Positions 521 to 27,695 of a stretch of 32,341 nucleotides of DNA are shown here, in pieces. The position numbers were made by a program, and so were the translations under genes. Source of the stretch: Gammaproteobacteria bacterium (GTDB lineage: Bacteria > Pseudomonadota > Gammaproteobacteria > JAADHQ01); assembly GCA_011052215.1 (NCBI GenBank), contig DRJK01000009.1:1-32341 (forward strand). Direction: 5' to 3'. The notes beneath the pieces were generated by a model. The model did not search any database. It was not told the DNA's origin and saw only the letters and a list, made by a program, of their open reading frames with translations. Position 1 is the stretch's first letter, and each line of letters starts with the position of its first letter.

Positions 521-550
521 GTTGTTGCTGATTTATTTCGCAAAATATCA

Positions 551-764
551 CTGCCCCGTTAACTTACGAAGTGAGCATAAATGTGAGGACATGGAACCGG
601 CATAGCCAAATCAAGACACGCAAAAGATGCCATCCATGGCCGCTCGGCTGCCGCATCCCTGCGGCAGACGGTCTTTATTTGGCTATGCCGGTTCCATGTC
701 AGGAATGCGTTGTTTAGCTCAAAATGGTCTTGCGGTTTATGTTTCGACTATACTTGTTATAGGT
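551..764 (+). repeat. Dispersed long-hairpin element, copy 1 (core inverted relative to copies 2 and 3)
   Basis: Arms 588-617 and 671-700 are complementary at 29/30 positions; loop 618-670 is 53 nt. The flanks (ccgttaact...aatgtgaggacatgg and catgtc...cttgcggtttatgtttcgactatacttgttatagg) match copies 2 and 3. Confidence 0.9.
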
Positions 765-818
765 TTCCGGGACATCAGTGGCAACATATGTAATGTAATT
801 CAATAAGCCTTTATATAT

Positions 819-2733: not shown

Positions 2734-3435
2734 ATGAAACTGATAGCAATAGACACATCAACGGAAGCCTGTTCAGCGGCAATACTGGATGGCGAGACGG
2801 TGCTGGAGCGATTTGAGATCGCCCGGCAAAGCCATACAGAGCTGATTTTGCCAATGATTGATTCCCTGTTGAAAGAATCCGGTTATGCCATACAACAATT
2901 CGATGCCATTGCCTTTGGTCGTGGGCCGGGAAGCTTTACCGGGATTCGAATTGGAACAGGTGTTGTACAGGGTTTAGCACTGGGGGCAGGGTTAGCTGTT
3001 GCTCCTGTTTCCAGTCTGGCCGCAATCGCACAGGGTGTATTTCGCTGTGAGGGCAGGAAAAATGTACTGGCAGCGATCGATGCCAGAATGAAGGAAATAT
3101 ACTGGGGTTGTTACCAGTTGAATGATCAAGGCATGATGGAATCCGTTCAGGATGAATGTGTTGCCAAGGCGGATTCCCTGTCCGTCCCCGTTGGAAGCAG
3201 CAAATGGTTTGGGGCCGGCACAGCATGGTCAGCGTATGAGCAGGAATTATTGGCGCTCTTCGGAGAAACAGTATCAGGCCATGATGGCTGTTGTTTGCCA
3301 CATGCACGCGATATCGCTGTATTGGCGGCAGAGCAGGTGAAAAGAAATGAACTGGTTTCGGTTGAAAATGTAGAGCCGGTTTACCTGAGGAACGAAGTCG
3401 CCTGGAAGAAGATCAGGTCACAGCTGCCCGGTTGA
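2734..3435 (+). CDS. tsaB: tRNA threonylcarbamoyladenosine biosynthesis protein TsaB
   Basis: MKLIAIDTSTEACSAAI...FGRGPGSFTGIRIG is characteristic of TsaB/YeaZ. Confidence 0.95.
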   Translation: MKLIAIDTSTEACSAAILDGETVLERFEIARQSHTELILPMIDSLLKESGYAIQQFDAIAFGRGPGSFTGIRIGTGVVQGLALGAGLAVAPVSSLAAIAQGVFRCEGRKNVLAAIDARMKEIYWGCYQLNDQGMMESVQDECVAKADSLSVPVGSSKWFGAGTAWSAYEQELLALFGETVSGHDGCCLPHARDIAVLAAEQVKRNELVSVENVEPVYLRNEVAWKKIRSQLPG

Positions 3436-3610
3436 CTTTATGAAGCATATATCAATGTGAGGATATGGAATCGGTAAGCCTGATCAAGACCGTCTGCCGC
3501 ACGGATGGCATGTTTTGCGTGTCTTGGTCAGGCTTACCGGTTTCATGTCCGGGCTGCGGGTTAGCCCGAAACGCACTTGCCGCTTACATTTCAACTACAT
3601 TCGTCATGGG
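3427..3610 (+). repeat. Dispersed long-hairpin element, copy 2 (short loop)
   Basis: Arms 3461-3490 and 3521-3550: 26 Watson-Crick pairs plus 4 G-U pairs read on the + strand. The 30-nt loop is a shortened version of the copy 3 loop. Overlaps the tsaB stop. Confidence 0.9.
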
Positions 3611-3641
3611 ATAACGGCACAGCAGTGAGATCAGGTGATTT

Positions 3642-11517: not shown

Positions 11518-11635
11518 GCGCGCGCTAATTTAGCAAATTCACACATGTGCCGGAACGTACTGTAGGGTGCCTGTTAATATCAGGTTGCGGTATGGGGTAC
11601 ATGGAGGCCTAACCCTTACAAACTGGAGTTTTACC

Positions 11636-25592: not shown

Positions 25593-26186
25593 ATGTATGA
25601 TAAATCGAGAGAGTACCCGTTACTGACCGCCGGTGTTGACGAGGTGGGCAGAGGGCCGCTGGCAGGTCCGGTTGTTGCAGCAGCAGTCATTCTTGACCCT
25701 GAAAAACCCATAGAAGGATTGGCCGATTCAAAAAAGCTGTCCGAAAAAAAACGTGAATATCTGTACCCGCTCATCAGGGAGTGCGCAATCTGCTACTGTG
25801 TAGCAGAGGCCAGTGTCGAAGAGATAGATGAGATCAATATCCTCCAGGCCAGCCTGTTGGCAATGAGGAGGGCGATAGAAGGGCTTGAAATCACACCCGA
25901 ATTTGTTCTGGTTGATGGAAACAAACCACCCGATATACCCATTCCGCTGGAGACAATCATAAAAGGCGATAGCCTGATCGCATCAATCAGTGCTGCGTCG
26001 ATACTGGCCAAGGTAGAACGTGACCGCATGATGGTGGAATACCATAAACAATATCCCGAGTTTTCCTTTCATAAACACAAAGCATACGGTTCCAGACAAC
26101 ATATGGCAGAACTGGCCATGTATGGCCCACTGGCGGTTCACAGGAAAACATTTGCACCGGTAAGAAAATTATTGACAGGAAAATAG
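25593..26186 (+). CDS. rnhB: Ribonuclease HII
   Basis: TAGVDEVGRGPLAGPVVAAAVIL...DSKKLSEKKRE...SILAKVERDRMM. Confidence 0.96.
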   Translation: MYDKSREYPLLTAGVDEVGRGPLAGPVVAAAVILDPEKPIEGLADSKKLSEKKREYLYPLIRECAICYCVAEASVEEIDEINILQASLLAMRRAIEGLEITPEFVLVDGNKPPDIPIPLETIIKGDSLIASISAASILAKVERDRMMVEYHKQYPEFSFHKHKAYGSRQHMAELAMYGPLAVHRKTFAPVRKLLTGK

Positions 26187-26464
26187 TCAGATTGCTTGTA
26201 TGATTTCATCGCAATTCCGTTAACTTTATTAAGCGCATATCAATGTGAGGACATGGAGCCGGTATAGCCAAATAAAGACCGTCTGCCGCAGGGAAGCGGC
26301 AGCCGAGCCGCCATGGATGGCATGTTTTGCGTGTCTTGATTTGGCTATACCGGCTCCATGTCCGGATTATTCAATCTGGCCCAAAACATACTTGCCGCTT
26401 ACGTTTCAACTACATTTGTTACAGGTGAACAGAATTGCGATGAAATCATACAAGCAATCTGACT
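26185..26464. repeat. Perfect 33-bp inverted repeat enclosing hairpin element copy 3
   Basis: agtcagattgcttgtatgatttcatcgcaattc (26185-26217) is the exact reverse complement of 26432-26464. The right arm carries the last codons of the downstream minus-strand gene. Confidence 0.95.
26213..26427 (+). repeat. Dispersed long-hairpin element, copy 3
   Basis: Arms 26249-26279 and 26333-26363 complementary at 30/31 positions; loop 26280-26332 is 53 nt; flanks collinear with copies 1 and 2. Confidence 0.9.
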
Positions 26465-27232: not shown

Positions 27233-27436
27233 TTAACCATCGATCAGTTCATGCCTTAAAATTTTCATGCTCATCGGTGCATCTATCGCCAGCTTTACGG
27301 GCGAGTCACCCTTGGCCTTTACCAAAACCCGGATAGGCCCGTTTGAAAAAAGTTCGGCTACCGTCATATCGGGGTGGATAGCCTCATTGGGGTAAATCAG
27401 GATAGATTCACCAGACTTCCTTTCCAGCACCAGCAT
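27233..27436 (-). CDS. csrA: Divergent CsrA-like translational regulator
   Basis: MLVLERKSGESILIY...IRVLVKAKGDSPVKLAIDAPMSMKILRHELIDG aligns to CsrA with an insertion between strands 1 and 2. Confidence 0.75.
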   Translation of the reverse strand: MLVLERKSGESILIYPNEAIHPDMTVAELFSNGPIRVLVKAKGDSPVKLAIDAPMSMKILRHELIDG

Positions 27437-27633: not shown

Positions 27634-27695
27634 TTACCCGTTCCATGTCCTCACATTCATATACGATTCATAATGCTAACGGGGCAGCAGTAAGT
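27634..27695 (-). repeat. Half copy (copy 4) of the long-hairpin element
   Basis: Reverse complement ctgctgccccgttagcattatgaatcgtatatgaatgtgaggacatggaac matches the left flank plus arm start of copies 1 and 3; no second arm found nearby. Confidence 0.75.

Follow-up and report, generated by a model that had tools for sequence, protein, structure and literature searches.

A MITE with IS4-like ends that probably carries a TwoAYGGAY-like, predicted CsrA-binding RNA module in a gammaproteobacterial genome

Results

The mobile element at the end of tsaB

The window (the whole 32,341-nucleotide stretch of DNA analyzed here) is contig C9 of a draft genome of 2.61 Mb in 183 contigs. The hairpin at positions 3461-3550 is the center of a MITE at 3419-3627 (copy 2) that is flanked by an exact 9-bp target duplication, and two further copies and a truncated one lie in the same window. 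The relevant features are as follows:

549..780 (+): MITE copy 1, whose core (588-700) is inverted relative to the terminal repeats, GGA strand -; imperfect target-site duplication 540-548/781-789 (8/9)
2734..3435 (+): tsaB, whose last codons and stop (SQLPG*) come from the MITE end (comparison with the empty site)
3410..3418: left 9-bp target-site duplication of copy 2, AGATCAGGT (from the sequence)
3419..3627 (+): MITE copy 2, 209 bp, CACAGCTGCCCGGTTGAC ... GGATAACGGCACAGCAGTG (TIR match and boundaries)
3461..3490 (+): left arm of the core hairpin of copy 2 (pairing and fold)
3491..3520 (+): shortened loop of copy 2, CGTCTGCCGCACGGATGGCATGTTTTGCGT, with a single GGA remaining (from the sequence; core 90 nt versus 113-115 nt)
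3521..3550 (+): right arm of the core hairpin of copy 2 (pairing and fold)
3628..3636: right 9-bp target-site duplication of copy 2, AGATCAGGT (from the sequence)
26207..26442 (+): MITE copy 3, core 26249-26363, GGA strand +, full-length loop with both inner hairpins (pairing and alignment)
27236..27436 (-): CsrA-family gene, 67 aa (PF02599), the second of two csrA genes; outside the element
27634..27691 (-): truncated MITE consisting of the left terminal repeat, left flank and start of the left arm (sequence match)

The truncated MITE end lies about 200 bp upstream of the start of the CsrA-family gene. An ordinary leader element, t44 RNA (RF00127), is present at 11525-11613 (+), and it was the only Rfam match at the gathering threshold in the window.

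Copy 2 was inserted at the stop codon of tsaB: its flanks, when joined, read AAG ATC AGG TGA (KKIR, stop), and the filled site encodes KKIRSQLPG, stop. In the same-genus genomes G002 and G003 tsaB faces a dapE-like gene and the element is absent. The copy number of about 180 was estimated from a left-arm plus flank pattern (at most three mismatches), which had 86 + 96 = 182 matches in the genome and none with the reversed control; the copies were then read as sequence stretches around each one. They are typically 209-236 bp long with no transposase inside, the usual length in the alignment being 233-236 bp, and the 76 extracted copies that have both ends share the termini CACTGCTGTCCCGTTAAC (left) and GTTAACGGGACAGCAGTG (right). 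Of 75 such copies, 27 lie between exact direct repeats of at least 9 bp, compared with 11 of 5625 in a mismatched-locus control, and the identity of the element as a MITE is near certain.

Only one DDE_Tnp_1 transposase gene was found in the genome, a 346-aa remnant of the IS4 family whose start is missing. Its TIR, CACTAGCGTCCGGTTAACTT, resembles that of the MITE, CACTGCTGTCCCGTTAACTT, and 16 of 20 end bases are common to the MITE and this one, truncated remnant. Because of this resemblance we consider the MITE to be, probably, a non-autonomous element of the IS4 type.

Around copy 3 there is an inverted repeat of 40 bp and 95% identity (26185-26224 / 26425-26464) that extends about 22 bp past the MITE ends, and no direct target duplication was seen for this copy. 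The repeat may have arisen either by insertion into a palindromic terminator or by outward arm conversion. Head-to-tail MITE arrays with a unit of about 210 bp, in which neighbors share their ends, were observed at L031 (G000:C77:1-557) and L022 (G000:C54).

The core hairpin and its full-length form

Read on the + strand, the stem of copy 2 has 30 bp, of which 26 are Watson-Crick pairs; the other four are G-U, at 3464-3547 (T.G), 3468-3543 (G.T), 3471-3540 (T.G) and 3484-3527 (T.G), and all of these are A-C on the - strand. Recomputation of the pairs thus returned exactly the four positions named in the original prediction, and its comparison of the three copies was also accurate: copies 1 and 3 differ in stem sequence yet pair (AaCCGGc / AgCCGGt), their AAA/TTT segment is TGA/TCA in copy 2, and an extra T-A pair is absent from copy 2. 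The + strand fold has a free energy of -59.5 kcal/mol (z = -10.8 versus shuffles). None of the four G-U pairs is private to copy 2, since all are present in other copies; those at 3468-3543 and 3471-3540 are the commonest family state (59 and 47 of 87 other copies), and those at 3464-3547 and 3484-3527 are also seen in 7 and 3 other copies, respectively.

The full-length core is 113-115 nt long, with two arms of 30-31 nt and a 53-nt loop that contains two inner hairpins, GCAsGGATGC and CCATGGATGG. Both GGAs are present in 79 of 87 full-length cores of this genome and are 23 nt apart in 79 of these 79. The core of copy 2 derives from this form by a 23-nt deletion, which joined the two GGATG repeats present in the full-length loop and removed one GGA hairpin. 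Cores of 90 nt are also present at L070 and L077, where the deletions lie between GGATG-like repeats as in copy 2 and are perhaps independent of it.

The loop of copy 1 is inverted with respect to copies 2 and 3, and copy 1 is one of 9-10 copies, among about 90, whose core is inverted with respect to the terminal repeats. These inversions are separate events, because the inverted copies are scattered over several subfamilies, and their breakpoints differ, because G-U polarity turns with the core in L041, L078 and L087 and does not in L045.

Relatives in other Gammaproteobacteria

Of 369 genomes sampled from the class, 8 contain the loop pattern CGAGCNNNCATGGATGN(8,9)GCGTGTCT (controls gave zero), and the pattern also occurs in at least 96 stretches from named genomes that include Marinobacter, Microbulbifer, Saccharophagus, Natronospirillum, Rheinheimera, Shewanella, Cellvibrio, Halieaceae and others; viral contigs searched with the core pattern had no match. 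These relatives have a near-constant two-hairpin center inside long stems of differing, paired sequence. The 111 loci examined, which include a few from this genome and G002, comprise 31 with the same IS4-type terminal repeats, 68 with none that were recognized, and 5 (plus 7 in part) with another type. At L179, L183 and L200 (CAMDWI MAG) the same core lies between a different pair of terminal repeats, of the ACTGTTCCGAAATT type; the MAGs of these loci carry the label Klebsiella pneumoniae, which seems doubtful.

Hairpin 1 has a GGA in 83 of 87 loci though its stem covaries, and outside this genome the two GGAs are 23-24 nt apart in 77 of 83 loci; the GGA of hairpin 2 was built into the cross-species search pattern, so its presence there reflects the search. 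By crude ORF calling, 20 of the cross-species loci are co-oriented with their neighboring genes, 18 convergent, 12 anti-oriented and 2 divergent; most appear to lie 3' of genes, and divergent regions appear to be avoided. The MITE copies of this genome have a random gene context (17 co-oriented, 19 convergent, 13 anti-oriented and 16 divergent), which does not bear out the predicted transcript co-oriented with the upstream gene.

Covariation and strand polarity of the stem

Long-stem pairs were counted on arms anchored at the core, because MAFFT put gaps in the wrong places within the free left arm (alignments A1 and A2), and all mismatch types were scored alike (symmetric trimming). In 49 distinct stems (60% identity cut) 86% of positions pair between the arms of the same locus versus 29% when arms are swapped between loci, and all four Watson-Crick pair types occur at each stem position from 5 to 26 across species; the proposed covariation is therefore present. 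RNAalifold analysis of 29 loci found two-sided changes in 16 of 26 consensus pairs, both inner hairpins included. On the GGA strand the ratio of G-U to A-C is 48:7 in 48 distinct stems with symmetric trimming (p = 1.3e-8), 36:7 in the first 22 columns, 66:9 untrimmed, and 40:5 in loci without a recognized MITE TIR. Because DNA-level conversion has no strand preference, these ratios point to selection on RNA read from the GGA strand, and such strand-specific, RNA-level selection on the core family is very likely from the sequence comparisons.

Does the same hold for the copies in this genome? Their 87 cores have 167 G-U, 33 A-C and 55 other non-Watson-Crick cells, most of the G-U cells being two family-wide pairs. 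Private changes from Watson-Crick pairs went to G-U in 9 cases and to A-C in 7, the mutation spectra are strand-symmetric (11:10 in the stem and 7:9 in the loop), and parsimony on a rough tree gave 49:29 G-U:A-C events, a weak bias. The polarity among these copies thus appears to be mainly inheritance, and the predicted G-U excess holds across species and not among private mutations here. The GGA bases are not visibly more conserved than the remaining loop bases, and single MITE copies look neutral after insertion. Accordingly, the original prediction of an RNA-level structure stands for the core family, and is unproven for the copy at 3461-3550, whose individual function is doubtful; its picture of a plain transcript hairpin had the RNA structure of the core right and missed the transposon and the two GGA hairpins.

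The GGA loops as candidate CsrA sites

In the full-length copies the GGAs lie in hairpin loops, in an A-N-GGA context and with a paired spacing, all of which are features of CsrA-type sites. The loop words of the inner hairpins, ACGGA, AGGGA and ATGGA, are listed as primary CsrA sites (PMC4066749), and binding of CsrA/RsmA by the two loops is a likely prediction. Two csrA genes are present in this genome; the gene is expected in Gammaproteobacteria and nearly all genomes examined have it, so its presence discriminates little.

In the Rfam comparisons, TwoAYGGAY (RF01731) matched two G309 relatives at 38.6-39.0 bits and did not reach the cut-off of 43, and its profile had no match at all to the window copy. 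Sub-threshold core matches to Ysr224 (RF02770) were observed in L092, L093, L098, L099, L104, L105 and L109. The tag and stem rules of the CGTC/GTAG REP families (PMC3733652) do not fit the element.

Discussion

The above observations are best explained, and we think probably explained, by a MITE with IS4-like ends that carries a TwoAYGGAY-like, predicted CsrA-binding RNA module as cargo. The module would be a long stem, free in sequence but kept paired, that encloses two short GGA-loop hairpins 23 nt apart. Its GGA strand would be transcribed (usually, in other species, from a neighboring gene's 3' end), and the two loops may bind one CsrA/RsmA dimer, either as a decoy or as a local 3'-UTR site, with the long stem protecting and presenting them. 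An IS4-type transposase would have copied the module around this genome, after which most single copies, including that at 3461-3550, would decay with no detectable constraint.

Could the core be an intergenic RNA hairpin unrelated to CsrA, such as a terminator, a stabilizer of mRNA 3' ends or an RNase III site? The position of the cross-species relatives 3' of genes (38 of 52 have a co-oriented upstream gene and only 2 are divergent) and the great stability of the stem are in keeping with this. However, the window copy has no intrinsic-terminator U-tract after its stem (the sequence past 3550 is GGGCTGCGGGTT), and GGA loops at a fixed 23-nt spacing inside a freely varying stem are left unexplained, so that we regard it as somewhat unlikely. 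A palindrome maintained purely at the DNA level, in which template switching or gene conversion keeps the arms alike, would fit the private mutations without polarity, the inverted cores of several subfamilies and the 25 two-sided Watson-Crick to Watson-Crick changes on the tree of this genome's copies, 16 of them on terminal branches. Perfect arms are also more common in inverted copies (3 of 9 versus 5 of 78 others, p = 0.03), an excess that fits template switching and is suggestive only. DNA-level arm-to-arm exchange does occur, because many two-sided changes are on short terminal branches and cores are inverted, and it is a possible main force among the MITE copies of this genome. Yet conversion produces perfect pairs and is blind to strand, so it cannot yield the cross-species excess of G-U over A-C, and it gives no account of the covariation in both small inner hairpins around the GGA loops; as an explanation of the core family a DNA palindrome is largely refuted, and we judge it unlikely.

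If the hairpin instead served the transposon, for example through single-strand folding or transposase binding, its confinement to the MITE in every core copy examined in this genome would follow, but the core has no recognized terminal repeats at most loci in other species (above), and L059 and L067 (151 bp) have perfect target-site duplications with most of the core gone. IS4-type transposition acts on element ends, which also counts against this role, and it is very improbable. Least credible is a mutational origin of the strand polarity, as an artefact of transcription that would produce C to T and A to G changes on the coding strand: this too predicts G-U over A-C, but the private mutations of this genome's copies are unbiased in both stem and loop, and the roughly 7:1 cross-species ratio seems to exceed what known biases would give.

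A CsrA-type RNA carried by a MITE appears to be new; in the open-access literature searched, no paper linking CsrA sites to bacterial MITEs was found, and no description of TwoAYGGAY as transposon cargo was present. The module, a close relative of TwoAYGGAY that is widespread in Gammaproteobacteria, clearly under strand-specific RNA selection and mostly 3' of genes, has been captured by one kind of MITE at least, perhaps by two, and one of these kinds has multiplied it to about 180 copies. We hold it possible, though not probable, that these two-site units act jointly as a CsrA sponge and also put CsrA sites in the 3' ends of neighboring mRNAs. If true, MITE transposition would rewire the Csr regulon, spreading CsrA/RsmA docking RNAs through bacterial genomes. 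The system offers a direct test of whether mobile elements disperse the binding sites of a global RNA-binding regulator, and it also shows a way to distinguish G-U polarity that was inherited from selection acting on single copies.

Comparison with known systems

Like IS4-family insertion sequences, the MITE has 9-bp duplications and the TIR pattern CACTnnnGTCCnGTTAACTT, which it shares with the IS4 remnant; unlike them it has no transposase, and no intact or active IS4-type partner was found in the genome. It resembles the ERIC, YPAL and NEMIS/Correia MITEs in its size class (100-250 bp), TIRs, intergenic position, high copy number and stable transcript hairpin, but here the hairpin is a nested, independent RNA module that is found elsewhere without TIRs, and the terminal repeats are not the hairpin arms. 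The Yersinia sRNA Ysr224 matches the same core in the seven loci above (22-38 bits, cut-off 70), but in 7 of 7 on the strand opposite to the GGA loops, and G-U polarity argues for the GGA strand as the functional one.

With the decoy RNAs CsrB/CsrC/RsmX/Y/Z the module has in common GGA loops that match CsrA/RsmA sites and are paired at a spacing a dimer could bridge; it differs in having two predicted sites per unit rather than many, and in being dispersed over the genome rather than encoded by one regulated gene. The CsrA SELEX consensus RUACARGGAUGU also has its GGA in a loop (PMC7652899), but the SELEX hairpins mostly have weak stems and hairpin 1 here has a strong one (median 7 bp). The hcnA ligand of RsmE, GGGCUUCACGGAUGAAGCCC, has CACGGAUG in a stem-loop in common with the commoner form of hairpin 1 (PMC13287468).

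A close relative of the core is TwoAYGGAY, a candidate RNA that has been without known function since 2010. Gardner and Eldai proposed it to be CsrA-binding (PMC4333381). Its scores for the best relatives and the window copy (above) set the core apart, but both occur in Gammaproteobacteria and have two AYGGAY-loop hairpins within a long, poorly conserved outer stem (present in the full-length copies and the cross-species loci; copy 2 has lost one of the two), a conserved AG between the hairpins and, in some loci, tandem G-A mismatches in the stem. Judged by these shared sequence features the core probably works like TwoAYGGAY and as a two-site CsrA ligand, though it scores below Rfam membership.
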